Below, piece after piece: positions 129 to 46,358 of a DNA stretch of 64,000 nucleotides. Origin of the DNA: Peribacillus simplex (lineage in GTDB: Bacteria > Bacillota > Bacilli > Bacillales > DSM-1321); NCBI RefSeq assembly GCF_001542915.1, contig NZ_LNNH01000027.1:1-64000 (forward strand), read 5' to 3'. Numbering within the stretch: position 1 is the stretch's first letter; each line of letters starts with the position of its first letter. A program made the translations under genes and the position numbers. The notes under the pieces were generated by a model that did not search any database, was not told the DNA's origin, and saw nothing but the letters and a program-made list of their open reading frames with translations.

Positions 129-371
129 GTTATGAACGAACCTAGCATCCAGCTTTACGATGCAATCCGGTCTGTCTTCCTCGTTTTCCCTCAATCATCC
201 CTATGTATACTCCCAACCATTGCGATGGGCACCGTTTTCTCTTTGATATTTTCATCATGTCTTTCTCTTCCCGCGTAGCAAACACTCCAAATTCCTCATT
301 TTACAAAAATATATAGATTTTTCCATTTATTTGTAATATTATCTTCTTTATTAAAAGGCAGTCTTTAGGAA
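129..371. other. Intergenic region before the RiPP-like cluster
   Basis: No convincing gene was seen. The last 70 bases are very AT-rich and probably carry the cluster promoter, but no pair of -35 and -10 boxes with good spacing could be picked out. Confidence 0.5.
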
Positions 372-1184
372 ATGGAGGCGGGCGAAATAACGAAACGAAT
401 CGTGCACATTGAAGATTCAGATGTTGCGCTGGATCAGGGGGTACTTATAGGCGGTTTTCCAGTCGATTCTGTGATATTCAGTAACATCCTTTCTGATAGA
501 TCGAAAAGAGCCTCCCGAATGATATATTCCCAGTTTGGAATCAAGACTACGATAGCATTGCCATATACCGACAAAGATTCTAAATTATTAGCCGATTATG
601 TAAGCTTGTTATCGGAATTGAATATTGATCAAGTAATACTGAAGGTTGGAACGTGGGGGATCAATCATTCGTTCATGGATCCCGGTGGCTTCCAGCATCA
701 GGATCAACAATCAATCGAGGGTTTACAATCATGGATTTCCGAATTCAAAGAATATCATGACATTCCGATTTATTTACATCCCATTAGACAATTATCACTG
801 CCCCCCCAGTCATTTTATAAAAAGGTAATCACGGAGTTAAGCGGTTTACATGTTCCTTTATCCATCGATTTGGGACTGGTATTATCGGACTGTAAAAATT
901 GGGGAATGAAGTATAAAAAAGAAATCCTCGCATTGCTGAGGAGTAACCCTTCCATATCAATGTTTTGGTTAAGCGCTGTCAGGAAAGCTGGTGATGCTTT
1001 CATCCCGTGTGCTTGTGAAAGTGTGGATGATCAAATATGGGAGATGGTTGATCTTTTGATAGGTGAAGATGCTTCACTGATCTTAATGACCGACAGACTG
1101 TCCAGTGAAACCCAAATCACTTCGGATGTAGAAAAACTAATGAATGCAAAGGGAGCTGTGCCTAAACATGAATACTACGGTTAA
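372..1184 (+). CDS. MNIO/DUF692-like barrel protein lacking metal ligands (putative)
   Basis: This 270-residue protein opens the peptide cluster. I did not recognise it directly, but its strand-helix pattern tracks that of the MNIO (DUF692) enzyme encoded at 4285-5127. The segments IPIYLHPIR (131-139), VPLSIDLGL (161-169) and ISMFWLSAVR (195-204) fall where the MNIO protein has PFVIELGP, IPIILDIPH and IAEIHIGAS. At those places the metal-binding His and Glu residues are absent and only the Asp (D166) is kept. It could therefore be a pseudoenzyme or scaffold for the active MNIO; this rests on pattern comparison by eye. It overlaps the next gene by 17 bases. The start is uncertain: the AGGAA before ATG 372 abuts the start codon. 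Confidence 0.5.
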   Translation: MEAGEITKRIVHIEDSDVALDQGVLIGGFPVDSVIFSNILSDRSKRASRMIYSQFGIKTTIALPYTDKDSKLLADYVSLLSELNIDQVILKVGTWGINHSFMDPGGFQHQDQQSIEGLQSWISEFKEYHDIPIYLHPIRQLSLPPQSFYKKVITELSGLHVPLSIDLGLVLSDCKNWGMKYKKEILALLRSNPSISMFWLSAVRKAGDAFIPCACESVDDQIWEMVDLLIGEDASLILMTDRLSSETQITSDVEKLMNAKGAVPKHEYYG

Positions 1185-1986
1185 GCCTGAGCTGGCGTTA
1201 CAGGATTTGCTGGTGAAAATGAGCATCGATCCTAAGTGGAGTCCAGATATCAAGGATGGGAAATTCCAGCGAACAGTAAAAAAAATGAATAAGGAAGAAC
1301 TTCTTCAATTAAATGTAAGTGCGTTCCACTCAGAAAGAAAAGGAAGATGGTTACAGATTCTAGCCCACTTGATACCGATGTTTTCCATGGGCATTCCCTT
1401 GTTGAAGGATGAATTAAAATGCTCCAGTGATAATGAATTGATGGAAACGGATGTATTTAACGAATTCTTTTCATCTCCTTTTTTATGGAATATCGAATTC
1501 AGCATTCCTCATCCATTGGGCTATGGCAAAGGTATAGAAAAGGCGACTGCTTTCATTTACTTTCTTAGATCTTATAAGGAGATGCTTCCGCTAAAACTAG
1601 TGGAACTTTTCGAATTGGAATATGCCATATTCAAAGCTTCTTATAAATTGCCTAGCAAAAATACTTCCTTTTTGGTTGGAAAGCTCTATAAGAATACTTC
1701 AGCGACTATCATGAAAACGAAATACGATGTCTTGAGTGTAATTGAGGGCTGTGCCGACTTTCATGAACTATTGCCATGCGAATCTTTTTATATCATCTCG
1801 CCATTAAATAAGACTTATAGAATAAATTCAGATTACTATCGTCTTTTAGCTTCTTTTGAGGAAGGTCATGAAACGGATAACCTTACTGATGGTGAGCGGA
1901 ATATAATAACTTCCGCTTTAAAACTCAGAATACTATGCGCAAACCCAGTGGATATTGAAGAACAGCTGATTGCCCATAAACGATAG
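1168..1986 (+). CDS. Putative MNIO partner / precursor-recognition protein
   Basis: A 272-residue soluble protein with no named domain that I recognise. Its last 70 residues (FYIISPLNKTYRINSDYYRL followed by a helix pair containing LTDGE) resemble the small winged-helix end of partner proteins that hold the precursor for MNIO enzymes. Its position between an MNIO-like gene and the precursor genes fits that role; this is inference. ATG 1168 is preferred over ATG 1144 because the AAAGGGAG at 1148-1155 would then serve as its ribosome binding site, inside the end of the previous gene. That coupling suggests the two proteins are made together, perhaps as a complex. Confidence 0.5.
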   Translation: MNTTVKPELALQDLLVKMSIDPKWSPDIKDGKFQRTVKKMNKEELLQLNVSAFHSERKGRWLQILAHLIPMFSMGIPLLKDELKCSSDNELMETDVFNEFFSSPFLWNIEFSIPHPLGYGKGIEKATAFIYFLRSYKEMLPLKLVELFELEYAIFKASYKLPSKNTSFLVGKLYKNTSATIMKTKYDVLSVIEGCADFHELLPCESFYIISPLNKTYRINSDYYRLLASFEEGHETDNLTDGERNIITSALKLRILCANPVDIEEQLIAHKR

Positions 1987-2001
1987 GTATCATTTGTTTA
2001 G

Positions 2002-2027
2002 TACATGGATATGATTTGGCGCACCAA
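2002..2027. repeat. Left arm of a 26-bp inverted repeat flanking the precursor genes
   Basis: Bases 2002-2027 are the reverse complement of 2455-2480 at 25 of 26 positions. This arm lies just upstream of a TATAAT box (2030-2035) and covers the place where a -35 box would be; no TTGACA-like sequence is there. It could be a regulator site, a recombination site, or one strand of a long RNA stem. Confidence 0.85.
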
Positions 2028-2029
2028 TC

Positions 2030-2035
2030 TATAAT
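2030..2035 (+). promoter_or_regulatory. Possible -10 box for the precursor genes
   Basis: A perfect TATAAT lies 35 bases before the first precursor start. The expected -35 zone is inside the inverted-repeat arm and does not match consensus, which would fit an activator-dependent promoter. This would let precursors be made in excess of the enzymes. Confidence 0.4.
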
Positions 2036-2069
2036 AAATGTTACTACATAGTGGAAAGGAGGAATATTT

Positions 2070-2234
2070 ATGGATAAATCAATCAAAAACCAAGACTTAC
2101 AAACTGATAAAAAAGAACTTTCATTGAATGAATTGCAAGAGCTTGTTGCTCCCGGTTTTCTTGAGGCGAACCCAAATGGCGGCTTGACGGATGCCGTGCT
2201 TGGCCAGTTGCTTGGACCACGTACTGATAACTAA
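2070..2234 (+). CDS. RiPP-like precursor peptide 1
   Basis: A 54-residue peptide behind a very strong ribosome binding site (AAAGGAGG, seven bases before ATG). It has an acidic helical leader (KELSLNELQELVAPGFLEAN), a double glycine at residues 38-39, and a proposed core of LTDAVLGQLLGPRTDN. It contains no Cys, Ser in the core or aromatic residue in the core, so classic lanthipeptide or thiooxazole chemistry is excluded. Asp and Asn are the obvious targets for the amidotransferase, MNIO and HExxH enzymes encoded downstream. The leader resembles double-glycine bacteriocin leaders, but no C39 protease gene is present; the M16 pair may cut it. The GG cleavage point is an inference. Confidence 0.8.
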   Translation: MDKSIKNQDLQTDKKELSLNELQELVAPGFLEANPNGGLTDAVLGQLLGPRTDN

Positions 2235-2256
2235 TTCGGAAGGAGGCAAGGATCAT

Positions 2257-2421
2257 ATGAAAAATACGAAGAAGAATCCCGAACTTAATTCAGATAATAA
2301 AGAACTTTCATTGAATGAATTGCAAGAACTTGTCGCTCCTGGTTTTCTTGAAGCGAATCCGAACGGCGGCTTGACGGATGCCGTATTAGGTCAGCTGCTT
2401 GGACCGCGTGTAGATAATTAA
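2257..2421 (+). CDS. RiPP-like precursor peptide 2
   Basis: A second 54-residue peptide, 22 bases after the first, with its own AAGGAGG site. From residue 15 to the end it differs from precursor 1 only at residue 52 (Val for Thr), while 13 codons differ silently. Residues 2-14 diverge freely. The copies are therefore not a recent duplication, and both leader and core have been held by selection. The C-terminal VDN with adjacent Asp and Asn is a plausible modification site. Confidence 0.82.
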   Translation: MKNTKKNPELNSDNKELSLNELQELVAPGFLEANPNGGLTDAVLGQLLGPRVDN

Positions 2422-2454
2422 ACAGTATGAAAACTAGTATGTAAATTTATTATT

Positions 2455-2480
2455 TTGGTGCGCCATATCATATCCATGTA
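2455..2480. repeat. Right arm of the inverted repeat flanking the precursor genes
   Basis: This arm mirrors 2002-2027 and lies in the 98-base gap between precursor 2 and the asparagine-synthetase-like gene. Together the arms enclose exactly the two precursor genes. The gap shows no clear terminator, so the enzymes can be reached by readthrough. Confidence 0.85.
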
Positions 2481-2519
2481 TGCATTTGCGTATTATCATG
2501 TTCGATTTGGAGGTATAAC

Positions 2520-4295
2520 ATGTGCGGAATATCGGGTTTTTTTGGAAGGGAAGATAATAAACCTATCTATGTAAAGACTTGTTTAAATGAAATGGAGCAT
2601 CGAGGACCTGATGATTGCAGCATTGTGGAATTAGATGAAATCGTCATGGGAACAGTTAGATTGTCGATTAGGGATTCAAGTGAAAAAGCGAATCAGCCAT
2701 TCGTAAGTTCCTCTGGCCGGTGGATTATCACTTTCAATGGGGAGCTAAATAATTTTCAACAATTGAGGCATGAGCTGAACCGTTGTTGGGTGACGGAATG
2801 CGATACAGAAGTCCTGGCAGAGCTTTTTGAAACGTATGGGAAAGAAGGGGTGCGGAAATTAAAGGGGATGTATGCCATCGCCGCTTTCGATACGTATACG
2901 GACAAGCTTTTCTTAGCACGTGATTTCCCTGGAATCAAGCCGTTATATTGGACAAAAACGGAAATTGGCGCATATATCTATGCTTCGGAATTCCCTGCGC
3001 TCCTTAATACGTTGAAAGCCTTGGATGAAGATTGCAAAATGACGGAAGCACAAGTGTATGAATATCTCATGTACCGGGATACCCTGCTTGAACCCAATAC
3101 CTTGATAAATTCCATTAAAAAGGTCTCTCCAGGGGAAATTCTCGAATTAAGTCTTGATAAAGAGGCCCTTTCAGATAAGATGTCAGGTGTCCATGAAAAA
3201 AACGAGCCCTTAGATTTAGAAAGGCTTTTCACGAAGGCCATTACCAGCGTAATTGAACTGAAACAAAAAATGGGGATGTTTCTTTCAGGAGGAGTGGATT
3301 CTAGTACCGTTTTATCAGAAATGGTATCGCAAGGAGCCGAGGTGGAGGCATTTACTCTAAGGTATGAAAAAACAGGTGAATTCTCTTATTCCGAAGTGCC
3401 CTTTAGTAAGTATGTCTGTGAATTTTTGAATGTACCCCTGCATGAAGTGATTTTAACGGAAAAAGATTTTATTGAATTGTTGCCCCAAGCGTTAGCCAAC
3501 CAAGACGGATTATCGATGGATCCGACGATAGTCGCTTATTATGCATTAGGCGAAGCGGCAGAAAAAAGAGGCCTAAAGGTTGTTATTACCGGCACAGGAA
3601 GCGATGAAATATTCGGAAGCTATGATTGGCTGCATTCCGATTCAATAGAACGGTTCGATCATTGGATGAAATCGGCCACAACCAAAAGTCTTTTAAGGAT
3701 GGATGAACAAGTCTGGAAAAATATAAGTGATTCAAGTTTTCTGGACAGAAAACATAAAATTGAAACATTTATGTCTGTTGGAGGAAATTTAGGCGATGCG
3801 ATCCGGCTCTTCGGCTTTTATCATTTAGAAGCTGATGCACTGCCGCGGGTCGATCTTGGGACCATGAATTCCTCAGTGGAGTGCAGAGTGCCTTTGCTTG
3901 ACCAAGATTTTGTCCAGGCTGCCCTATCCATGTCGCCCGATAAGGAAAAAAGCCTTTTTCGCAGTCTCAGTAAGAATAGAATCCCCATTGAAATACAGCA
4001 AAGGCCAAAATGCGGGTTTCCGCATCCTGTATTTATATGGATGAAGCATGGCCAATTAGGACGGGTTGCTTATGACTTTTTAAAAATAAGTCAGCTGAAA
4101 GACGTGATCAATTTTGAGGAATTAGATAAATTCCTGAATGATGGCTCAAGCCTTTTAGGTAGGAATCCTTCTGCCCGCTTATATGATGTGGGGAGCTCGT
4201 TCTGGTATATATATAGTTTTGCACTATGGTGTGAGATACATAAGGTAAGATTACCTAATTTGAAGAAGTGTAAGGAGGTATATTATGAAAACTGA
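2520..4295 (+). CDS. Asparagine-synthetase-like glutamine amidotransferase of the peptide cluster
   Basis: A 591-residue class II glutamine amidotransferase fused to an ATP-pyrophosphatase domain. The N-terminus is MCGISGFF, so Cys2 becomes the catalytic N-terminal Cys; FNGELNN (72-78) and D95 in CDTEV complete the glutaminase site. The P-loop SGGVDSS is at 256-262. An intact glutaminase half is notable because many lasso-peptide cyclases of this fold have lost the catalytic Cys. In this setting it may amidate a core Asp or the C-terminus, or form an isopeptide or lactam bond. It is less likely to be a housekeeping AsnB, given that it overlaps the MNIO gene by 11 bases inside a peptide cluster. 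GGAGG lies before ATG 2520. Confidence 0.85.
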   Translation: MCGISGFFGREDNKPIYVKTCLNEMEHRGPDDCSIVELDEIVMGTVRLSIRDSSEKANQPFVSSSGRWIITFNGELNNFQQLRHELNRCWVTECDTEVLAELFETYGKEGVRKLKGMYAIAAFDTYTDKLFLARDFPGIKPLYWTKTEIGAYIYASEFPALLNTLKALDEDCKMTEAQVYEYLMYRDTLLEPNTLINSIKKVSPGEILELSLDKEALSDKMSGVHEKNEPLDLERLFTKAITSVIELKQKMGMFLSGGVDSSTVLSEMVSQGAEVEAFTLRYEKTGEFSYSEVPFSKYVCEFLNVPLHEVILTEKDFIELLPQALANQDGLSMDPTIVAYYALGEAAEKRGLKVVITGTGSDEIFGSYDWLHSDSIERFDHWMKSATTKSLLRMDEQVWKNISDSSFLDRKHKIETFMSVGGNLGDAIRLFGFYHLEADALPRVDLGTMNSSVECRVPLLDQDFVQAALSMSPDKEKSLFRSLSKNRIPIEIQQRPKCGFPHPVFIWMKHGQLGRVAYDFLKISQLKDVINFEELDKFLNDGSSLLGRNPSARLYDVGSSFWYIYSFALWCEIHKVRLPNLKKCKEVYYEN

Positions 4296-5127
4296 AACAC
4301 AACTGGCAAATGAAGTGATTTCAGGGAAAAGATTAGGGATCGGAGTGGCTTGGATAGACTCTCCGGAATATTTGGACTTTATAAATAAAGAGTTGGATCC
4401 TTCCTTCCACTATATTGAGGTGCACCTCCCATCGAATATTAATAATGTGCCATCGAATTTCGAGAAGATCGCTCATTGCAGCACGCTGCCATTGGCCGAT
4501 TTACATGAACCGACAAGAAAGATAATAAAGGATGTTTTCCATCAAGCCAAGGAAATTGAAGCCCATTGGATAGGCGAGCACCTTTCAATTTTGGGAACGA
4601 CGGATGGGCTTCAATTCGGTTATATTTTTGCTCCGATAAAAGATGAAGACCTGAAGGATAGAGTGATAAGAAGGATAAAAAGATATCAAGAAACCTATGG
4701 AATTCCATTTGTCATTGAATTAGGCCCCCGCTATCATGATTGGGGCGGAGTCGATGTTCTGGAGGACTATACCTTACTGAAAGAGATTTCCATTGAAGCC
4801 AATATTCCAATCATTCTCGATATTCCTCATACATGGGCAACAGCCAAAGCCTTTAATAAATCATTCGAGGAATTGTTAAGCTTCTTAAAAGGGGCCCATA
4901 TTGCCGAAATTCATATCGGGGCAAGTGGCGTATCCAAAAAAGGGCAAATCTCATTTGAACAAAGTTGGAATCAGTTGGTCATTTGCCTTGAAATGTTCCC
5001 TGAAGTTAGGGGAATTACAGTCGAGCTGGGAAAAAATACGAAAACGGAAGACTATTGCAATACAATAAGGGAAGTATCTAAACGGTTCCAAAGCAGTAAA
5101 TGGAGGATAAATGATGAAAACAATTGA
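4285..5127 (+). CDS. MNIO (DUF692) family iron oxidase
   Basis: A 280-residue TIM-barrel protein with the spaced ligand pattern of multinuclear non-heme iron-dependent oxidative enzymes: E98-H99 in GEHLS, E135 in VIELGP, D169 and H172 in ILDIPH, H200 in EIHIG and E237 in VELGK. The family modifies Cys, Asp or Asn in peptides (methanobactin, 3-thiaglutamate, aminopyruvate and bufferin pathways). The precursors here have no Cys, so an Asp or Asn target is expected. The usual Asn after the family Glu (EN) is Leu here, so this is a divergent branch. Ribosome binding site AAGGAGG; start inside the end of the previous gene. Confidence 0.75.
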   Translation: MKTETQLANEVISGKRLGIGVAWIDSPEYLDFINKELDPSFHYIEVHLPSNINNVPSNFEKIAHCSTLPLADLHEPTRKIIKDVFHQAKEIEAHWIGEHLSILGTTDGLQFGYIFAPIKDEDLKDRVIRRIKRYQETYGIPFVIELGPRYHDWGGVDVLEDYTLLKEISIEANIPIILDIPHTWATAKAFNKSFEELLSFLKGAHIAEIHIGASGVSKKGQISFEQSWNQLVICLEMFPEVRGITVELGKNTKTEDYCNTIREVSKRFQSSKWRINDENN

Positions 5128-6283
5128 TTTTAAGAATTTATTGACTCCGGCTCCTTCGAATATTGGAAGGGATGTTCATAAACAATTACTTTCTCTCAGA
5201 AATATTAAAGCGTTAGAGCTAATCCTTCAATCAAACAAGGAGGAAAATCTAAATTGGCTGGGAAAGGCAATCGACCTGCTCAAGACCTGCGATGCAGCGG
5301 AAAGGGATCATGTCCTTAATAAGCCATATGTTTATTTATGGATTGAAAAGTATAAAAATTTCACTTCCATGGGCGAAACCGAAAAGCAAACTTGGATTTG
5401 GAAAGGATTTGTGCACATATTCTTACAATTGAACAAAAGGGTAAATCCTGTGCTGGAAAGTTTAAGGCTCAGATTTACCGTGAAACCAAAGGATATTTTT
5501 TTCTTGAAGGACATGACAGAAAATCAAGCTGCTAAAGAAATCTTGGTAATAAGCGAAAATAACCACATCACTTTTGAAGTGGAACATGTCCTGTACAGTT
5601 TCGATGTTCATACCTTTCATAAAGCATTTACCCTTCCATTCATTACGAACGAAGTTTTTTGGTTTGAGGAATATGTGAACATTGCATCCTCTGCGGAATT
5701 GCGCATGAATATGGAAATAACTGAAGTAGTGTCCGAAGACATTAATAACTCCTTTGAAGAAGCGTTGCAATTAATCAAGATCAGCTGGCCAGAAATGTTT
5801 GCCGAGATTGATGGAAACATAGAGAATATCGTATTCTTCAACCCGCCTGGTCTGCCGTTCTTTTCCGATTTTCGAGTGCATGGAACCATCTTTGCCTGCC
5901 ATGTTGCAAGACCTGTGGTGAAAATTGCTGAATGGTTAATTCATGAAGCAAGCCATAATAGATTGAATACAATCATGTGCGCTAGGCCCCACATTTTTAA
6001 CGATATGAAGCCAATTTACACTTCACCATGGAGAGATGAATTAAGGCCGTTATACGGTATTTATCATGGATGTTTCGTCCATTGCAGAGTATTGCATTTC
6101 TATCGGCTATTGAAGAAAAAACGGGCCACTTACAAGGGAGTATCAATGGAATCGGAAATAGAGAGAATCAGCGAAGAGCTGCAATTGGGTTTATCAACGA
6201 TTGAAGAACATGCATCATTGTCTCCTGATGGTGAAGCGCTTGTACATGGTATGCAAAACTTGGTTATAGCTGATTCCAAGTAA
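5111..6283 (+). CDS. aKG-HExxH-type peptide beta-hydroxylase
   Basis: A 390-residue protein with the family signature near its C-terminus: HEASH at 278-282, then SPWRDELRP (305-313) and the downstream YHGCFVHCRV with H319. This family, first noticed as an HExxH motif protein near RiPP genes, is now regarded as 2-oxoglutarate/iron-dependent and hydroxylates the beta carbon of residues such as Asp, Asn or His in precursor peptides. Residues 1-250 form a poorly conserved helical region that may bind the leader. The gene overlaps the MNIO gene by 17 bases and has GGAGG just upstream. ATG 5114 is an equally good start. Confidence 0.82.
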   Translation: MMKTIDFKNLLTPAPSNIGRDVHKQLLSLRNIKALELILQSNKEENLNWLGKAIDLLKTCDAAERDHVLNKPYVYLWIEKYKNFTSMGETEKQTWIWKGFVHIFLQLNKRVNPVLESLRLRFTVKPKDIFFLKDMTENQAAKEILVISENNHITFEVEHVLYSFDVHTFHKAFTLPFITNEVFWFEEYVNIASSAELRMNMEITEVVSEDINNSFEEALQLIKISWPEMFAEIDGNIENIVFFNPPGLPFFSDFRVHGTIFACHVARPVVKIAEWLIHEASHNRLNTIMCARPHIFNDMKPIYTSPWRDELRPLYGIYHGCFVHCRVLHFYRLLKKKRATYKGVSMESEIERISEELQLGLSTIEEHASLSPDGEALVHGMQNLVIADSK

Positions 6284-6306
6284 AGATTGAAACTTGAAAG
6301 TGATCG

Positions 6307-7620
6307 ATGGTCATTACGGCATCCAAATTAGTTGGGGGTATCTTATTGCATTTATTTCATCCATTTAAGAAATACACACCATTATTAAATGAAAAAAGGT
6401 TTACTTATTTATGCTTATCGGAGTCTTTTTCTACCCTTGGGAATATGGCCCAAGGGATAGCTCTAGCAGCATATATTTTCACCTTATCACAGTCGATATT
6501 CATCTTTGGTCTATATCTCATCATTCGTTTCGCCCCGCAATTCTTACTATTTTCCATAGCTGGGAATATAGTCGATAAATATTCAAGACGGTTCACCTTA
6601 ACGATCATCAATCTCTTGTTGGCTCTTTTGACATGTGTAATGGCTTTTAATGCTCATAGTACAACCATCATCCTTATTATCACGCTTCTGATTGGGATCA
6701 TCGAGCTGCCTTATCATCCTGCACTGTCCTCAAGCATTCCTGCATTGGTGAAGAAAGACCAGCTAGGGCTAGCTAATGGTCTAATCGGGATATTGACAAG
6801 TATAGCCAGAGTGATCGGTTCAGCTATTGCCGCTTTCGGATTATTAAATGACACTGTAATCGGTTTATTGATTTTCAATGCGGTTACATTTTTCATTGCC
6901 GGAATGATAACATGGACGAAGCTCCCCACTGCCAATGAAGATAGTGACCGAGCCCAAATGAAGGGGACTGAGGAAAGTGACGATCTTGAGCAAAGCGGGT
7001 TAAGCACTAGCATTACCTATATCCAAAAACACTCGGTTCTAAAAAACCTGATTTTCGGCTCTTTTTTGGTTTGGGGATGTCTAAGTATCACAGATGTTTT
7101 GTTAGTGCCCTTATTGAATTCCACGATTCAAGGCGGAGAGAAGTATTACGGGATTTATCGGTTCATTGCAGCCTTAGGCATGTTAATTGGGAATTACTTG
7201 GCTGTTCCTTGGAGAGAACGATATTTATCCTTGAAAAGAACTAAATATGGATTTGTAGTCCCGTTAGTCATTTTATCATTCAGCAGTATCGGCATTGCTT
7301 TCTCCCCACTCATATTAGGTCCGATATTATATTTGTTTTTATGGATAGCGATGTTTTTGCCTTCCAATCTCTTGAATGTTGAACTTCAATCCACCCCTAA
7401 TAACATTAGGGGCAAGGTCATTTCGATAGCGGATGCATTGGATGGAATTCTCTTTATCTTGTTAACGGGTCTTTTACCTTATTTATCTCATTTCATAAGC
7501 GTGAAAAAATTGCTGATAGCCGCATCGATACCCTTCGTGGTGATAAGCTTGATTTTAACCTATAGGTTTATAAAATCGGTTTATATCAATAAAAAGAATA
7601 AAGGCTTGGAGTTAACATGA
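6307..7620 (+). CDS. MFS transporter, probable exporter of the modified peptide
   Basis: A roughly 437-residue membrane protein with about twelve hydrophobic segments and a charged central loop (about residues 208-235), typical of major facilitator efflux proteins of the MFS_3/enterobactin-exporter type. Its place between the tailoring enzymes and the proteases points to export of, or self-protection against, the peptide. The start is uncertain: ATG 6307 has a poor ribosome binding site, whereas TTG 6346 follows a run of GGGGG at suitable spacing and would give a protein 13 residues shorter. The last bases overlap the next gene by four (ATGA). Confidence 0.82.
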   Translation: MVITASKLVGGILLHLFHPFKKYTPLLNEKRFTYLCLSESFSTLGNMAQGIALAAYIFTLSQSIFIFGLYLIIRFAPQFLLFSIAGNIVDKYSRRFTLTIINLLLALLTCVMAFNAHSTTIILIITLLIGIIELPYHPALSSSIPALVKKDQLGLANGLIGILTSIARVIGSAIAAFGLLNDTVIGLLIFNAVTFFIAGMITWTKLPTANEDSDRAQMKGTEESDDLEQSGLSTSITYIQKHSVLKNLIFGSFLVWGCLSITDVLLVPLLNSTIQGGEKYYGIYRFIAALGMLIGNYLAVPWRERYLSLKRTKYGFVVPLVILSFSSIGIAFSPLILGPILYLFLWIAMFLPSNLLNVELQSTPNNIRGKVISIADALDGILFILLTGLLPYLSHFISVKKLLIAASIPFVVISLILTYRFIKSVYINKKNKGLELT

Positions 7621-8864
7621 GAAATGATTTTGTCACAAGGGAGCAAGGGAATTTCAGTTTTCATCTTTTGCCTTCGGAGAAGTATGTTCAAACGACGATC
7701 GCCGTGAGAATCCATTTGGATCTGGATGAGAAAATGACTACGGGTGCTGCATTACTGCCCTACATATTGCTTCATGGAAGTGAACGATTTAGAAATGACT
7801 TTATCATCCAATCAAAGCTGGATGAAGAGTACGGAGCGAAACTAGGAGTCTCCATTGATAAAAAAGGCGATAAGCAGGTTTTATGTTTATCGCTAAAGTT
7901 TTATAATCAAAAGCATAAGATGATCAAACCGGAAATTTTGACAGTGTTACTTGATTTATTAACCCAGCCATTAATTACTAAAAAATCCGTTGAACTTGAA
8001 AAAAAGCTCCACTCACGAAGAATCCAAAATGAGATTTTTAATGCGTATCATTATTCGTATAAAAAGAGTTTTCTATATTTACAAGGAAATCAACAAAAAT
8101 TGTATCTAGATCAGGTAGGTTCGATAGGTGATATCGAAACGTGGAATGAGTCAAAGTTGCGGAATCTCCACCAAAAGATACTTCAAACAGCCCCCATACA
8201 TGTATACGTTATCGGTGACATTGATGAAGAAGAGGTGTTGGAACAATTAAGCAGCTGTTTATGCGGAGGAGTCGAAGAATCGGAGCGTTCCATGATACCT
8301 CCAACACCCGTGCAAAGCCCTGTAAAAACATATCATTGTGAAAAATTCCAGTCCAAACATGCCATAATCACAGCATGTTCCAGTACTGGTGGGATAACCT
8401 TGAAAAGCGAAAAATACCCGGCATTGGTGGTGTTCAACCGCCTTTTAGGCGGGTTCCCACACTCGAGGTTATTCATGAATGTAAGGAACCAGCTCCAAGC
8501 AGCTTATTCGATCATAAGCATATTGGATGCAATCAATGGCCTTCTGTTCATCCAAACGGCCATTGATCCGGCTTCTGAAGAATTGGTCCTTAGGAAAATA
8601 TTTGGTGAAATGAAGTCGATAAAAGAAGGAGGCTGCACCCAAGAGGAATTGGAGGCGACAATCAAAACATTGAAAAATAGTTACAAGCTTTCTCAAGACT
8701 CCCCCGTAAGTTTAATTGATTTTCATCAAAATGGGATAATCAGCGGAAAAGTTAGGACCATGACTGAAATGATTGATTGCATCGATCGCATCGAATTACA
8801 GGACATCCAGGAAGTGGCGCAAGTTTTTAAAGGCTATTCCATTTTCACTTTAGGAGAGGGATAG
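7617..8864 (+). CDS. M16-family peptidase-like subunit, zinc motif absent
   Basis: A 415-residue protein of the insulinase/M16 fold, similar in layout to Bacillus YmfF and AlbE-type proteins. Where an active subunit has HxxEH it has the sequence around LLHGSERF, so it cannot bind zinc in the usual way. M16 enzymes often act as a heterodimer of one catalytic and one non-catalytic half, and the catalytic partner is the next gene. The pair probably removes the leader peptide, as PqqF/G-like pairs do. Start codon overlaps the transporter stop. Confidence 0.8.
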   Translation: MRNDFVTREQGNFSFHLLPSEKYVQTTIAVRIHLDLDEKMTTGAALLPYILLHGSERFRNDFIIQSKLDEEYGAKLGVSIDKKGDKQVLCLSLKFYNQKHKMIKPEILTVLLDLLTQPLITKKSVELEKKLHSRRIQNEIFNAYHYSYKKSFLYLQGNQQKLYLDQVGSIGDIETWNESKLRNLHQKILQTAPIHVYVIGDIDEEEVLEQLSSCLCGGVEESERSMIPPTPVQSPVKTYHCEKFQSKHAIITACSSTGGITLKSEKYPALVVFNRLLGGFPHSRLFMNVRNQLQAAYSIISILDAINGLLFIQTAIDPASEELVLRKIFGEMKSIKEGGCTQEELEATIKTLKNSYKLSQDSPVSLIDFHQNGIISGKVRTMTEMIDCIDRIELQDIQEVAQVFKGYSIFTLGEG

Positions 8865-8873
8865 GGATGAACC

Positions 8874-10088
8874 ATGGTTATTGGTAGTCATATCGAAAAA
8901 AAGAACATAAACGGATTGGACACTCTATTGGTCAATAAAAAAGGTTTTCTCGAAAACTATATTCTCCTATCGGTCGGATTTGGAGGGATGGATAGCCATT
9001 TTCAGGATGGATGGAATAGGAAAATCCCCTATGGAACTGCACATTTTTTAGAGCATCTCATTATACAAAATGTGCAGTTCGACGCCATATATAGATTTGG
9101 TGAAATAGGGGCTTCTCTAAATGCCAGTACGAATTTCGAACGTACATCATTTTCCATATCCTGTACGGAACAGCTTGGATTAAATATTCAAATGATTCTA
9201 AAACTTGTCCAGTCGATTTCCATAACAAAGGACATCGTGGAAAAAGAAAAAAAAATCATCAAGCAGGAGTTTATGCAATTACATAGTAATAGAAAAAACA
9301 GCTGTTACACCCATCTATTGTCTGATTTATATGGGGGAGAAAGCGGGTTGGCACAGCCGATCATTGGCAATTCAGGAAGTATAGAATCAATGGATGCCTG
9401 CATGCTGCAGAAGTGTTTTCAAAAATTCTATTCAATAGAGAATATGAAAATCATCATCATAGGAGAATTAAATCCTGAAGAGGTCTATGACGTCATCGAA
9501 CGTGCGCTTGCAAATTCCCCAGTAAAAGAAAAAGAACGTTTTTCGCCATTCATACCAGTCAAAAGAGAGAGCCTGAAAATCGAACAGATTAATAGCACTC
9601 AATCTGTCCTCTTCTGGGGGAATGCAATCACTTATGGAAATGATGCTGGGAATCCTTATAACGATATCCGTAAGGAATTCAGCATTAGAGTCGGGTTGGA
9701 AATTCTTTTCGGCAGGACCTCCGAATTTCAGCGGAAAATCCATGGCCAGGGTTTAATAGATGGAAGCATCGATGTCAAATGCGAATTTTCAAATAGATAT
9801 TGCTTTTCGTTATTAAACACAATCACAAACAAGCCATCAGACGTGATGGAAGAAATCGATAAAACAAAAAAAGATATACGGAAGAGGAGTATCGGTGATG
9901 TTGAATTTCTAATTTCGAAACGAAGGATTATCGGAAGGATAATCGATGTATATGATCACCCAGCAAAGTTAGCCAATTCGATCCTCCATTATTCCATTAG
10001 AGGGATGGATTTTTCCGATGTTCTTGACGTAATGAATCTAATTACAAAAAAAGAGGTCATGGATGCCATGCATTCCCATCTGTTATAA
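8874..10088 (+). CDS. M16-family zinc peptidase, catalytic subunit
   Basis: A 404-residue M16 peptidase. The inverted zinc motif HFLEH is at 57-61 and a third ligand is likely E132 in IIKQEF, about the usual 70-75 residues later. It follows the inactive partner by nine bases; the AGGAGAGGG at the end of that gene supplies the ribosome binding site. Expected job: cut the leader from the modified precursors, possibly near the double Gly. An alternative is degradation of imported peptide as immunity. It is the last gene of the cluster; no clear terminator follows. Confidence 0.85.
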   Translation: MVIGSHIEKKNINGLDTLLVNKKGFLENYILLSVGFGGMDSHFQDGWNRKIPYGTAHFLEHLIIQNVQFDAIYRFGEIGASLNASTNFERTSFSISCTEQLGLNIQMILKLVQSISITKDIVEKEKKIIKQEFMQLHSNRKNSCYTHLLSDLYGGESGLAQPIIGNSGSIESMDACMLQKCFQKFYSIENMKIIIIGELNPEEVYDVIERALANSPVKEKERFSPFIPVKRESLKIEQINSTQSVLFWGNAITYGNDAGNPYNDIRKEFSIRVGLEILFGRTSEFQRKIHGQGLIDGSIDVKCEFSNRYCFSLLNTITNKPSDVMEEIDKTKKDIRKRSIGDVEFLISKRRIIGRIIDVYDHPAKLANSILHYSIRGMDFSDVLDVMNLITKKEVMDAMHSHLL

Positions 10089-10279: not shown

Positions 10280-10561
10280 ATGAAACGACTGCTTGCTCTA
10301 TGCATATCGCTGCAAATTGCCTTCGTCCTGCTTTACATCACGGGAATTCTTCCTGAGTTGAACGCTTATGCCGGTGCCATCGTTTGCTTGATCATTGGGT
10401 TTGCAAGTATGGTGCTCAGCTTATATTCGGCAGGCAAGAAATTCAGCTTGGGCGTTTCGTTCTTGGCATTCATCTTTTCCTTATTCATCATTTGTTTCAC
10501 CATTTTCATTTATTTCCTGCCAGAAGCGGGGATGCCTCCGGTAATTCCTTTGTTTGATTGA
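10280..10561 (+). CDS. Small hydrophobic membrane protein
   Basis: A 93-residue protein with three predicted membrane segments (about 5-22, 28-48 and 57-80) and a short Pro-rich tail. AGGAG lies seven bases before ATG. I do not recognise a family. It sits 191 bases beyond the peptide cluster on the same strand and could be an immunity protein, but nothing in the sequence shows this. Confidence 0.6.
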   Translation: MKRLLALCISLQIAFVLLYITGILPELNAYAGAIVCLIIGFASMVLSLYSAGKKFSLGVSFLAFIFSLFIICFTIFIYFLPEAGMPPVIPLFD

Positions 10562-10642: not shown

Positions 10643-12025
10643 TCAATGAGCGGCTGGGAGCCATCCTTTTTCGATGGCCACTTCTTGTATCGAGCGGTAA
10701 ACCGTGTCGACCATGGCATTCAATTCCTCTTCCGACATGGCCAGGATCGGCATCATCGTGATGACGGGGCCAAGTTCGCGGATGATCAGGCCATTTCCCC
10801 GTGCCTTATTGATGATTCCGGAAACGACGTTCTCTTGAAGCGAGAACGTTTCTTTCGTATGGCGGTCTTTGACGATTTCCACTCCTATCATCAGCCCGCG
10901 CTGGCGGATATCGCCGACGATGGGAAGTTCGTATAGCGCCTGCAGTTTTTTTGTAAGCTGCCTGGCTTTCTTCTGGATGTCATGTATGAGTCCGCGCTCC
11001 TCCATCAGTTCGATGTTCTTCAGCGCCAGTGCGCAGGCTAGCTGGTTACCTGTATAGGTATGGCCGTGATAAAAGGTTTTATGCTCCTCACGCTCCCCCA
11101 GGAAGGATTGGAAAATCCGGTCATTCATGATGGTCGCCGCAAGCGGCATATAGCCGCCAGTGATCCCTTTGCCCATGCACATGATATCCGGGACGACATC
11201 TTCTTGCTCGCAGGCGAACATCGTACCGGTACGCCCGAATCCTACGGCCACTTCGTCACAAATCAAAAGGACATCATACTGCTTGCATAACATTTCGACT
11301 TCCTTCAAAAAGCCATCTGGATGGGTGATGATGCCTGCCGCTCCTTGAACTAACGGCTCGATGATCAATCCGGCAATTTGTGCGGCTTGCTGCTGCAGCA
11401 GCTTCTCCAATTCATTCAGACAATGGTTTTTCACCGCTTCTTGATCTCCGTATTCGGTCATGTGATAGGCATGTGGCGAAGGGACGGAGATGCGTTCGAA
11501 TAAGAGGGGCTTGAAGATCCTATGATACAGGTCCATGCCGCCCACGCTTACAGCTCCAACGGTATCTCCGTGGTATGCTTCGTCGAGGGAGACGAATTTG
11601 TTTTTATGCCGATGCTTGTTTGGATCGATATTCTGCCAATATTGATAGGCGACTTTAAGGGCGATTTCGACAGCCGCAGATCCCGTGTCAGAGTAGAAGA
11701 CCTTGGATAAATGTCCGGGTGTGATCTCCGCCAGTTTTTTTGCCAGCAAGATCGAAGGAACATTGGCAGATCCGAGCAGCGTCGAGTGCGCGATTTTGTT
11801 CACTTGTGCAATAAGGGAGCCATTGAGCTCCGGCTCATTATGGCCGTGGACATTCACCCATAGGGATGCATAGCCGTCGAGATAGCGATTGCCATCCACA
11901 TCAATCAGGTAGCTGCCCTCACCGCGCTCGATGATTAATGGCTTGCTTTCGCGATACGTTTTCATTTGGGTGAATGGGTGCCAGACATACTCCTTATCCC
12001 ATTGCTCCAATTCGATATGGTTCAT
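10643..12025 (-). CDS. bioA: Adenosylmethionine-8-amino-7-oxononanoate aminotransferase BioA
   Basis: A 460-residue class III PLP aminotransferase that converts KAPA to DAPA in biotin synthesis. Visible marks are WHPFTQMK at the N-terminus, the PLP Asp in ICDEVAVGFGRTG and the Schiff-base Lys in CMGKGITGG. The N-terminal WHPFTQM and the biotin neighbours separate it from other class III aminotransferases. The start overlaps the bioD stop by four bases, so the two are translationally coupled. It is the last gene of bioYDA. Confidence 0.95.
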   Translation of the reverse strand: MNHIELEQWDKEYVWHPFTQMKTYRESKPLIIERGEGSYLIDVDGNRYLDGYASLWVNVHGHNEPELNGSLIAQVNKIAHSTLLGSANVPSILLAKKLAEITPGHLSKVFYSDTGSAAVEIALKVAYQYWQNIDPNKHRHKNKFVSLDEAYHGDTVGAVSVGGMDLYHRIFKPLLFERISVPSPHAYHMTEYGDQEAVKNHCLNELEKLLQQQAAQIAGLIIEPLVQGAAGIITHPDGFLKEVEMLCKQYDVLLICDEVAVGFGRTGTMFACEQEDVVPDIMCMGKGITGGYMPLAATIMNDRIFQSFLGEREEHKTFYHGHTYTGNQLACALALKNIELMEERGLIHDIQKKARQLTKKLQALYELPIVGDIRQRGLMIGVEIVKDRHTKETFSLQENVVSGIINKARGNGLIIRELGPVITMMPILAMSEEELNAMVDTVYRSIQEVAIEKGWLPAAH

Positions 12026-12729
12026 GCATGGAACACCTCTTTCAGTTGTTGGATATATCCTTGGTCGCCAAGGAGTTCAAGGATTTGGGTCCTCAAGTCT
12101 TTTCTGACATCGGCAAAAGTGGGCAGGCAGGCAAGCCGCTTGAGACCTGTCAGTTTTTCAATCGTTTCGATATTGTCGCGATGAATCAGATTCTCAGGCC
12201 GGTAATGGTTATAAGCAATCGCTTTAACGGTAACATCATGGGTGCGGGCATAGGATTGCGTCGTCACGACTTGATGAATCGCACCTAATCCACATGTCGA
12301 TACAATTAGGACAGGCATCTCGCAATCCTTGATGAAATCCTTCGTCATATAGAAATCATCCTCCCGTTCAATGAGCGGTACTGCCAATCCACCTGCACCT
12401 TCGACGAGAACGATGTCATACAGGCCCTCAAGCTCACGGACCCTTTCCACGGCTTTTTTCTCATCGATTGGACTTCCCGTCAATTTAATCGCCAAATGCG
12501 GTGAGGTTTCAGGCTCAAGGGTGTAGAAACCTGGATTTTTAACACCGAGTTCTTGCTCGAACCAGGAAATGTCCGGGTATGTATGATTTTCAACATTGAT
12601 TCCGGTTTGGAAAGGCTTGAAAATCGTGACGCTTATCCCCAATGTTTGAAGGGATAGGTAAAGGGCACTGGTGATGATCGTTTTCCCGATATCCGTTCCG
12701 GTTCCGGTTATAAAGTAGGCTTGGCCCAT
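12022..12729 (-). CDS. bioD: Dethiobiotin synthetase BioD
   Basis: A 235-residue P-loop enzyme that closes the ureido ring of dethiobiotin using ATP and carbon dioxide. The N-terminal GTGTDIGKT is the phosphate loop and VEGAGGLAVPL is the second conserved motif of the family. Its start lies within the end of bioY (22-base overlap), so the gene is part of the bioYDA operon under the BirA box at 13362-13397. Confidence 0.95.
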   Translation of the reverse strand: MGQAYFITGTGTDIGKTIITSALYLSLQTLGISVTIFKPFQTGINVENHTYPDISWFEQELGVKNPGFYTLEPETSPHLAIKLTGSPIDEKKAVERVRELEGLYDIVLVEGAGGLAVPLIEREDDFYMTKDFIKDCEMPVLIVSTCGLGAIHQVVTTQSYARTHDVTVKAIAYNHYRPENLIHRDNIETIEKLTGLKRLACLPTFADVRKDLRTQILELLGDQGYIQQLKEVFHA

Positions 12730-13292
12730 GGATGATTCAGCTCCTTAACGTTGATATATCTTGATAGGCGCGGACGTACTTGCTTGATGATGACGGCACA
12801 TAGTATGCACAGCAATAAATCACCGGGTGCCGGTATGAAGAAACCATAAAGCAACGTTTGGTAAAGGGATAGCGGCGCTTCGGCCATCCACTTCATTGCT
12901 CCATACAGCCAGACGCAGCCGACTAAGTAAACGGTCAGCAATGTCGCAACATTGGCAAGGAAAATGGAACGGATCGCCGAGAGATTGAAGCGGTTGATCA
13001 GCCATCCGTTGACATAGGCGCCAAGGATATATCCAAGCAAATAGCCGAAAGTGGGCTTGAATAGATACCCCAATCCCCCGCCCTCCGCGAACACCGGCAC
13101 CCCGGCCAGTCCGATCCCGACGTAGCATAATATACTGAGTGACCCAAGCCGGGGCCCAAGCAATGCGCCTGCCAAGTAGACCGCCAAAATCTGCAGTGTG
13201 AATGGGATGTAAGGGACAGGTATTTTAACGGTGGCGCCAATTGCCGTTAACGCAGTAAAGAGGGCTACATAAGAAATCGATCTTGCTTTCAA
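12708..13292 (-). CDS. bioY: Biotin transporter BioY
   Basis: A 194-residue membrane protein with about six hydrophobic helices, the biotin-binding S component of ECF transporters. The family segment GPRLGSLSILCYVGIGLAGV is present. The TTG start at 13292 is chosen because AAGGAG lies nine bases before it; the upstream ATG 13301 overlaps that site. No ECF ATPase or T-component gene is nearby, so shared energising subunits are expected from elsewhere. First gene of bioYDA. Confidence 0.92.
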   Translation of the reverse strand: MKARSISYVALFTALTAIGATVKIPVPYIPFTLQILAVYLAGALLGPRLGSLSILCYVGIGLAGVPVFAEGGGLGYLFKPTFGYLLGYILGAYVNGWLINRFNLSAIRSIFLANVATLLTVYLVGCVWLYGAMKWMAEAPLSLYQTLLYGFFIPAPGDLLLCILCAVIIKQVRPRLSRYINVKELNHPWAKPTL

Positions 13293-13361
13293 GTCAATCA
13301 TCTCCTTTTTTAAATAATGGGCAGGCAAAATGCCCACTACTAGTTTGCCTGATTGATATTT

Positions 13362-43271: not shown

Positions 43272-46200
43272 ATGAAGAAATTAATTATACCAACTTTCTG
43301 TTTTGCAGTATTGTCGACAGTTGCATTCGAAGAAAAAATATCTGCAGCTCCACTACATGCAGAACAGACCAATGTAGATACAGGCGTCATGTATGTAAAT
43401 GTAAATTCCGGTTCACTCAATATGAGGAAATCGGGAGCGGAAAGTGCGAGTATAGTTGCCAAGCTTTCAAAAGGCACGCCGGTAACGATTTATTCGGAAT
43501 CCAAGGGTTGGACGAAGATCAAAGCCAATGGTAAGGAGGGGTATGTCAGTACTAAGTATTTATCGGCAACGAAGCCAGGGGCTTTAACTAGGACCGCCGT
43601 AACGGTAAAGACGGTGACGAAATATGTGAATGTCAGCACGGGTTCCCTCCATATGCGGAAAAGCGGGACCGAAAGCGCAGCCGTAGTTACGAAGCTGACG
43701 CGTGGCACCCAGGTTACGGTTTATTCGGAATCCAAGGGTTGGGCGAAAGTAAAAGCCAATGGTAAAGAGGGTTACGTCAATGCCAAGTATCTCTCGGCAA
43801 CGAAACCGAACCAGGCAGCCCAATCTTCCGTCACAAGTAAGACGGCAACAAAATATGTGAATGTCAGCACGGGTTCCCTCCATATGCGGAAAAGCGGGAC
43901 CGAAAGTGCAGCCGTAGTAGCGAAGCTGACCAGGGGCACCCAGGTAACGGTCTATTCGGAATCCAAAGGATGGGCAAAGATCAAAGCCAATGGAAAAGAT
44001 GGTTATGTCAATGCCAAGTATCTTTCGGCAACGAAGCCTGATCAGGTAACCAAAGCCGCCGTAACTGGAAAAACGGCGACGAAATATGTGACGGCAAGCA
44101 CGCTCAATATGCGAAAAGGCGGTAACGTGAGCTCCAGCATCGTCACCATGCTTTCAAAAGGGACACAGGTGACGGTTTATTCGGAATCGAAAGGTTGGGC
44201 CAAGGTCAAGGTCAATGGAAAAGACGGGTATGTCAGCACCAAATATTTGTCGGCAACGAAGCCAGCGACAGGATCGGCAGAAACCACCCAAAAAACGACG
44301 ACGAAATACGTGACGGCAAGCACGCTCAATATGCGTAAAAGCGGGTCGGATAGTTCAAGCATTGTCGCGAGGCTTTCAAAAGGGACGAAAGTGACCGTTT
44401 ATTCGGAATCGAAAGGTTGGGCGAAGGTCAAAGCCAATGGAAAGGACGGGTATGTCAACACCAAATATGTATCCGCGACAAAGCCGGGAACCGCTCCCAA
44501 ACCGACTGCCCCTGAAAAAACGACGACGAAATACGTGACGGCAAGCACGCTCAATATGCGTAAAAGCGGGTCGGATAGTTCAAGCATTGTAGCGAGGCTT
44601 TCAAAAGGGACGAAAGTGACCGTTTATTCGGAATCCAAAGGATGGGCCAAGGTCAAAGCCAATGGAAAGGACGGATATGTCAGCACCAAATATGTATCGG
44701 CGACAAAACCGGCAACCGCTCCCAAACCGACTGCCCCTGAAAAAACGACGACGAAATACGTGACGGCAAGCACGCTGAATATGCGAAAAAGCGGCAGTGA
44801 AACCGCAAGCATCATCGCCAAGCTCTCAAAGGGAACCGAGGTAAAGGTCTATTCGGAATCCAAAGGATGGGCGAAGGTCAAGGCCAATGGAAAGGACGGC
44901 CATGTCAGCACCAAATATTTAACGGCGACAAAACCGGTAACGGACTCCAAGCCGGCGGTCCCTGAAAAAACGACGACGAAATATGTAAACGTGAACTCAG
45001 GGACACTCAATATGCGGAATAAGCCATCAGAAGACGCTTCGGTCATCGTGAAATTGGCAAGGGGTGTAGAGGTGGAAGTCATCTCGGAAGCAGATGGCTG
45101 GTCCAAGGTTAAAGCGTATGGCGGAGAAGGTTACGTCAGCACGCAATATCTATCAACAACGAAACCTGGTTCCACACCGGAAAAACCCGGACAGAATCCA
45201 GGCGGTGAAGTAACGACCATCACCAAATATGTAAATGTGAATGATGGCTCCAGTTTGAATATGCGTTCAAGCGCATCGACGTCCGCTACTATCATAGCTA
45301 CGCTAGTAGATAAAACGGCCGTAACCGTGTATTCGGAAGCAGATGGCTGGTCAAGGATCACGGCTAACGGAAAAACGGGTTATGTGAGCACGAAATATTT
45401 AACTGAAAAGGCACCGGATGTTCCAGGGAATCCGAATGACTCGGTCATCAAGATCGAAAAAGAGTACAATCTTACAATGGATAAGATGGTGCAAATTCAA
45501 ATGGCGGCAAATGCGCAAACAGATAAAGCGTACAAAACCTACATACGTGAGGATGGCTTGTCTCTCGTAAATTCAACCAAAGGCACCGTCAAAGGCTCCG
45601 GTTGGCGCGTAAGGGGCGGAGCTGGCCCCAATTATTGGGTGGTCGGGGATGTAAGCAATAATCAATCGCTGACGATTAAATCAAAAGTCAAAGGCTCTGA
45701 CGGGTACTACTGGTATGAGGTGAGCTATAACAAGACATGGGTGAATGCTAGTCCGGAAGACATAGAATATAACCTGAATCCCAAAAATTTCGTCAATGAC
45801 CCAGTTCATTCTTACCAGTTCGTCAAGCTCTCCCAAGTTACCAATATGAATGTCTCCGAAGTGAATGATAGAATCCTTTCAGGCAAAGGCATACTGCAAG
45901 GACAAGCTGCGACCTTCACTTCCGCAGGGGTAAAGTATGGAGTCAATGAGATTTATTTGATTTCGCATGCCTTGCTGGAGACAGGGAATGGCACGTCACC
46001 GTTGGCAACAGGAGTGAAGGTGAACGGGAAAACGGTCTATAATATGTATGGAGTGGGAGCTTATGACGGTACAGCTGTCAGCAGCGGTGCTCAATATGCC
46101 TATAATGCCGGCTGGTTCACGCCGGAAGCGGCCATTATCGGCGGCGCCGAATTCATCGCCAAAGGCTACATCTCCGCAGGGCAGGATACGCTTTACAAAA

Positions 46201-46358
46201 TGAGGTGGAACCCTACGGCAGCAGAGAAGTATGGCTATGCGTCACACCAGTATGCCACTGATATTGGCTGGGCAACCAAGCAAGTGAAACAGATTTATAA
46301 TCTATATAGTTTATTAGATTCCTATAAATTGACGATTGAAATTCCTAAATATAAATAA
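43272..46358 (+). CDS. Secreted SH3b-repeat N-acetylglucosaminidase (LytD-like autolysin)
   Basis: A 1028-residue exported cell-wall hydrolase. After a signal peptide there are nine SH3b repeats (about residues 38-715), each with the pattern YVNV..GSLNMRKSG, V.VYSESKGW and GYVSTKYLSATKP and joined by Pro/Lys/Thr linkers. The C-terminal 230 residues are a GH73-type glucosaminidase (ISHALLETGNGTSPLATGV with the catalytic Glu, YNMYGVGAYDG). Repeats 5 and 6 are almost identical in DNA, so this is a site of repeat-number change. It should cut glycan strands of peptidoglycan in the wall. Confidence 0.92.
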   Translation: MKKLIIPTFCFAVLSTVAFEEKISAAPLHAEQTNVDTGVMYVNVNSGSLNMRKSGAESASIVAKLSKGTPVTIYSESKGWTKIKANGKEGYVSTKYLSATKPGALTRTAVTVKTVTKYVNVSTGSLHMRKSGTESAAVVTKLTRGTQVTVYSESKGWAKVKANGKEGYVNAKYLSATKPNQAAQSSVTSKTATKYVNVSTGSLHMRKSGTESAAVVAKLTRGTQVTVYSESKGWAKIKANGKDGYVNAKYLSATKPDQVTKAAVTGKTATKYVTASTLNMRKGGNVSSSIVTMLSKGTQVTVYSESKGWAKVKVNGKDGYVSTKYLSATKPATGSAETTQKTTTKYVTASTLNMRKSGSDSSSIVARLSKGTKVTVYSESKGWAKVKANGKDGYVNTKYVSATKPGTAPKPTAPEKTTTKYVTASTLNMRKSGSDSSSIVARLSKGTKVTVYSESKGWAKVKANGKDGYVSTKYVSATKPATAPKPTAPEKTTTKYVTASTLNMRKSGSETASIIAKLSKGTEVKVYSESKGWAKVKANGKDGHVSTKYLTATKPVTDSKPAVPEKTTTKYVNVNSGTLNMRNKPSEDASVIVKLARGVEVEVISEADGWSKVKAYGGEGYVSTQYLSTTKPGSTPEKPGQNPGGEVTTITKYVNVNDGSSLNMRSSASTSATIIATLVDKTAVTVYSEADGWSRITANGKTGYVSTKYLTEKAPDVPGNPNDSVIKIEKEYNLTMDKMVQIQMAANAQTDKAYKTYIREDGLSLVNSTKGTVKGSGWRVRGGAGPNYWVVGDVSNNQSLTIKSKVKGSDGYYWYEVSYNKTWVNASPEDIEYNLNPKNFVNDPVHSYQFVKLSQVTNMNVSEVNDRILSGKGILQGQAATFTSAGVKYGVNEIYLISHALLETGNGTSPLATGVKVNGKTVYNMYGVGAYDGTAVSSGAQYAYNAGWFTPEAAIIGGAEFIAKGYISAGQDTLYKMRWNPTAAEKYGYASHQYATDIGWATKQVKQIYNLYSLLDSYKLTIEIPKYK

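Follow-up and report, generated by a model that had tools for sequence, protein, structure and literature searches.

The nitrilobacillin (pes) cluster in a Peribacillus simplex genome, with its chromosomal slot and an inverted repeat around the precursor genes

Ten co-directional open reading frames at 372-10088 of the analysed DNA (a 64,000-nucleotide stretch, hereafter the window) almost certainly constitute the pes cluster, a RiPP pathway for which the published nitrilobacillin chemistry is the best explanation. Nitrilobacillins were described from the pes cluster of P. simplex VanAntwerpen02 (PMC13060819, bioRxiv 2026), whose listed components are PesX, PesI, PesA1, PesA2, PesC, PesH, PesO, PesT, PesP1 and PesP2. 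All ten are present in the window (Table 1), PesX being recognised also by its fold and PesI by position and conservation only. A sequence-only reading had proposed an undescribed RiPP pathway here; the RiPP pathway is borne out, its gene set being that of the published pes, while the epithet "undescribed" has to be dropped in view of PMC13060819. These ten genes form a real and conserved RiPP cluster whose pathway and key chemistry are already known.

All ten ORFs lie on the + strand, with gaps in gene order of -41, 83, 22, 98, -11, -17, 23, -4 and 9 nt. The arrangement first noticed in the sequence, namely ten co-directional genes with overlaps or short gaps comprising two precursors and the named enzymes, was confirmed by the ORFs and domain searches, and Pfam and NCBIfam returned the expected families (AsnB-like, MNIO, HExxH hydroxylase and the M16 pair). 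The first two ORFs had been left unnamed, an incomplete account to which PesX (MNIO-like decoy) and PesI (MNIO partner) can now be added. The start of pesI is probably at 1168 rather than 1144, because two relatives begin at the corresponding Met.

Table 1. Features of the pes region in the window, with predicted functions.
Feature	Position	Strand	Predicted function or character	Evidence
promoter-like block	283..351	+	upstream of pesX, pes-linked	sequence matches in relatives
pesX	372..1184	+	MNIO-like TIM-barrel pseudo-enzyme	fold of model; role described in PMC13060819
pesI	1144..1986	+	MNIO partner protein	position beside pesX; relatives 80-85% identical; role described in PMC13060819
left arm, 26-nt inverted repeat	2002..2027	+		overlaps promoter-like TGGATA-18-TATAAT (2006-2035)
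pesA1	2070..2234	+	precursor, 54 aa, C-terminus GPRTDN	conserved in relatives
pesA2	2257..2421	+	precursor, 54 aa, C-terminus GPRVDN	conserved in relatives; calculated GluC fragment masses equal those printed
right arm, 26-nt inverted repeat	2455..2480	+
pesC	2520..4295	+	AsnB-like nitrile synthetase	Asn_synthase, GATase_7; Cys2, Asp334, Tyr340, Glu363, Tyr368, Arg443; SGGVDS at 256
pesH	4285..5127	+	MNIO, Asp beta-hydroxylase	PF05114 2.7e-13; ApyH-like 5.2e-16, below curated cut-off
pesO	5111..6283	+	aKG-HExxH peptide hydroxylase (Pro)	TIGR04267 3.7e-25; HExxH motif is HEASH at 278; PDB relative 8s5f ChlH 1.2e-11
pesT	6307..7620	+	MFS transporter, probable exporter	PF07690 (MFS_1) 6.5e-23
M16 subunit, YfmF-like	7617..8864	+	without HxxEH	NF047422 1.1e-73
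M16 subunit, YfmH-like	8874..10088	+	HFLEH (HxxEH) at residues 57-61	NF047421 1.5e-70; PDB 4xea 1e-42

The identity was assessed through the published description, on the basis of gene content, the numbered residues of PesC, the precursor numbering and the PesA2 masses. The calculated [M+2H]2+ values of the 22-residue GluC fragment of PesA2 carrying two hydroxyls are 1111.5798 for the amide and 1102.5745 for the nitrile, equal to those printed for dihydroxylated PesA2 in PMC13060819 (Figures 4 and 5, legends). The PesC residues D334, Y340, E363, Y368 and R443 are all found at their published numbers (5/5), and Gln14, Pro18, residue 20 (Thr/Val), Asp21 and Asn22 of the GluC fragment numbering fit the window precursors. 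Both precursors end in R(V/T)DN with a preceding proline, and the HExxH enzyme (PesO) is present. The VanAntwerpen02 cluster, as described in PMC13060819, hence has the same ten genes, PesA2 fragment mass, PesC residues and substrate numbering, and no difference from the window was found at the level of that description; the window may come from another strain. An unrelated, undescribed RiPP pathway resembling pes in its enzyme families alone would accommodate the lack of an NCBIfam model for the precursors, but with mass, residue numbering and gene set all in agreement with pes, such a pathway is hardly conceivable.

PesC contains Asn_synthase (1.6e-49) and GATase_7 (2e-31) domains, and its best NCBIfam match is the plain asparagine synthase TIGR01536 (7.6e-86), in which 289.1 bits exceed the cut-off of 267.1; therefore a nitrile synthetase would not be recognised from family models alone. 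The lasso cyclase model of NCBIfam is also matched (5.6e-29), at 101.2 bits, far below its cut-off of 525. Both scores could be read to mean that PesC only amidates the C-terminus, as TsrC and ScdTA do, or behaves like a lasso cyclase and closes a lactam, giving a product without a nitrile. According to PMC13060819, TsrC, ScdTA and the lasso cyclases share the AsnB-like family with PesC, in which we find asparagine synthase domains, but they amidate or cyclise and, unlike the published PesC, form no nitrile. The published enzyme, which has the same five residues and whose substrate agrees in mass and numbering, proceeds to the nitrile via an amide intermediate, and this makes amidation or lactam formation as the end point very improbable.

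PesH matches PF05114 (MbnB_TglH_ChrH) with 50.2 bits, above the gathering score of 25. The nearest MNIO model in NCBIfam is that of ApyH from the ApyHI system, which likewise acts on Asp according to PMC13060819; the PesH score of 58.6 bits is, however, far below the equivalog cut-off of 400, and ApyHI forms an alpha-keto acid, whereas PesHI introduces a hydroxyl only (PMC13060819). A sequence search of the PDB with PesH gave two chance-level matches only. Neither PesX nor PesI has a Pfam family at E 0.001 or an NCBIfam family; PesX accordingly lacks the MNIO sequence signature (no PF05114 match at E 0.001), and its profile search of PDB sequences found nothing. The AlphaFold2 model of PesX is of medium confidence (pLDDT 67.8, pTM 0.72), and in a fold search of the PDB ranks 1-5 were chains of MbnB complexes (E 5.5e-6 to 2.7e-5), the match being a loose one (TM about 0.6, rmsd 5.4-5.8, 9-13% identity). 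Rank 7 was a DUF692 protein, while rank 6 and many later ranks were other TIM barrels, with E from 4.1e-5 up. This medium-confidence model and loose match point to an MNIO fold for PesX. In the alignment presented in PMC13060819, the iron ligands are lost in PesX, and PesH is without the HxD motif. The predicted model of PesI (pLDDT 40.7) gave no usable structure.

PesO scores 88.9 bits against TIGR04267 (mod_HExxH), for which the cut-off is 40. The two M16 subunits match the YfmF and YfmH models over nearly their full length, although at 248.6 bits against 285 and 238.5 bits against 250 they stay below the curated cut-offs. The HxxEH motif is confined to the second subunit. No Pfam family was found for PesA1 at E 0.001, and no NCBIfam family for either precursor. 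The residue check agrees with the earlier observation that PesA1 and PesA2 are free of Cys; their last 40 residues are identical except for the TDN/VDN terminus.

The published work reports that PesHI hydroxylates Asp21 (L-threo), that PesO makes 3S-hydroxyproline at position 18, and that PesC converts the C-terminal carboxylate to an amide and then a nitrile in two ATP-dependent steps, the elimination of AMP in the second being the mechanism proposed by the authors; it also shows that PesX and PesH compete for PesI, and that the M16 pair had poor activity in vitro, yielding a range of products, mainly a 25-mer (PMC13060819). By analogy, in the window pathway PesH with its partner PesI would hydroxylate the precursor Asp21 at the beta carbon, and PesO would hydroxylate Pro18. 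PesC would adenylate the C-terminal carboxylate of Asn22 and amidate it with ammonia from glutamine; a second ATP would then serve to activate the amide, and elimination of AMP would leave the nitrile. The leader is presumably trimmed by the YfmF/YfmH-like M16 pair and the product exported by PesT, while the MNIO-like PesX may compete with PesH for PesI, so that nitrile formation would be held back. From the identity of the parts we infer that the window copy carries out the same chemistry, the nitrile product included.

The modifications expected from the sequence fared unevenly. Asp hydroxylation agrees with the published pathway, and so does amidation as an intermediate, but the end point is a nitrile (-19 Da) rather than the amide alone (PMC13060819). 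The HExxH enzyme PesO acts, as published, on Pro and not on Asp or Asn. A product of about 16 residues is unproven, the 25-mer being the main product of the M16 pair in vitro. The authors of PMC13060819 regard the nitrile group as unprecedented in ribosomal peptides; they note that nitriles are warheads in protease-inhibiting drugs, and suggest proteases cleaving at Asn as the target of the product.

The same ten genes occur together in all three related loci examined, those of the same-species genome G422 and of G418 and G438 (the locus L007 of Peribacillus sp. Bi96, with the same protein matches as G438, was counted with it as one). Because the set recurs in three related loci, the grouping is not due to chance. 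PesX was detected in 4 of 43 family genomes, the window genome and the same-species genome included, and in 2 of 397 genomes of the order sample (the window genome and G438). PesI was found in the window genome itself alone among 398 genomes of the class sample; PesH was matched in 6 of 398 genomes of the phylum sample, the five others being partial matches of 22-28%. A contig scan limited to close relatives gave one locus. No pes cluster was found outside Peribacillus in the partial genome samples searched; PMC13060819 reports 26 clusters in Bacillus-related genera. No match to PesX was present in the plasmid collection, the viral contigs contained no relative of PesH, and the chromosomal flanks are conserved, which argues against a plasmid or phage origin.

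On the pesX side, the nearest large gene (F5) encodes 496-497 aa in the three carriers in which this side is visible, while in the window genome the contig ends before it; the F5 copy of the pes-less relative G434 is an oligopeptide:H+ symporter (TIGR00924). The other flank, at 10643-13337 on the minus strand, holds bioA and bioD, identified by NCBIfam, and a third gene without an NCBIfam match, which we take to be bioY-like. Between the cluster and this flank, a 93-aa hydrophobic ORF (10280-10561) without an NCBIfam match belongs to the flank rather than to the cluster, because it also stands beside bioA in the pes-less G405. Four pes-less relatives were compared (G417, G405, G428 and G434). 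In G417 and G405, F5 and bioAD are present and pes is missing; G428 has bioAD, with neither pes nor F5 in the stretch. In G434, F5 and bioAD flank a lone pesT, 84% identical (L015:8520-9854), the other pes genes being absent from the stretch; at E up to 1e-60, pesT is matched in 5 of 36 genus genomes, namely the four carriers and G434.

The block upstream of pesX at 283-351 recurs in the three other carriers (100, 83 and 96% identity), and a copy with 82% identity precedes the lone pesT of G434; at E 0.001 the G417, G405 and G428 stretches have no match to it. The block may be a promoter; the promoter scan gave no + strand promoter-like site in 283-351. G434 is read here as a deletion relic that kept the transporter gene, the opposite order of events being the alternative; a deletion relic would fit self-protection by pesT. 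Neither the slot beside bioAD nor the lone pesT of G434 was found in the main text of PMC13060819.

Farther along, the window encodes a 1028-aa protein in which a glucosaminidase domain accompanies nine SH3-like stretches (43272-46358), and a 1201-aa protein in which GW repeats occur together with CDP-glycerol glycerophosphotransferase and glycosyltransferase domains (52894-56499).

The two precursor genes are bracketed by the 26-nt inverted repeat, in which 25 of 26 positions pair. The next longest inverted repeat in the window is 15 nt, and in 30 simulated 64-kb sequences with the dinucleotide make-up of the window comparable repeats reached maximum lengths of 14-20 nt. The repeat is present in all four pes loci with 25, 25, 26 and 25 of 26 positions paired (G-U counted), the first two loci being identical, which leaves three distinct sequences. 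When its core pattern was searched in 36 genus genomes with up to two mismatches, three carriers gave both arms and G438 gave one; isolated single matches, three in all, came from two further genomes. The remaining arm of G438 departs from the pattern at three positions, a level at which further chance matches appear. Identity of the arms to those of the window is 25/26 and 25/26 in G418, and 24/26 and 22/26 in G438. Adjoining non-coding stretches were compared in eight cases, of which seven range from 9/15 to 37/42 (60-88%) and one, in G418, reaches the level of the arms (31/33). Since the precursor genes are 84-94% identical among relatives, conservation of the G438 right arm (85%) does not exceed that of coding sequence.

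In the predicted minimum-energy RNA fold of 1986-2520, computed without a shuffle control, the arms pair with a mean pair probability of 0.95. Three G-U pairs among the relatives and a double change from G-C to A-U are consistent with RNA pairing; one A-C mismatch is not. The promoter-like sequence overlapping the left arm matches at 10 of 12 positions and is one of three tied for best, the region containing 24 such matches against 31.6 in shuffles, that is, no excess. No + strand terminator-like site is listed between 124 and 4009, and Rfam gave no matches at gathering scores in the 64 kb. An invertible DNA segment is not favoured, the orientation being the same in the four loci. It is possible that the repeat forms an RNA stem or represents twin operator sites, the sample being too small to decide. 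Neither "inverted repeat" nor "promoter" occurs in the main text of PMC13060819, which places pesH and pesXI in separate operons, citing Figure S28; a literature search for a repeat around RiPP precursors in Peribacillus listed no paper about such a repeat, as judged by the listing.

One tentative scenario, on balance doubtful, is that a stem of 25-26 bp in a read-through transcript closes an RNA loop around pesA1A2 and could be cut, which would supply a plentiful precursor mRNA separate from those of the enzymes. It would act as a second gate, at the RNA or promoter level, beside the PesX decoy, the lone pesT being an exporter-only relic of an immune type. The alternative to a processing stem is an inverted pair of operators at the starts of pesA and pesC. 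The repeat, the slot and the lone pesT are regulatory and evolutionary leads and do not constitute a new pathway. The repeat, the presence or absence of pes in its slot and the relative with pesT only bear on the gating of production and on self-protection; if the scenario of a processed stem is true, the making of a possibly toxic nitrile peptide would be subject to a second gate besides the PesX decoy.
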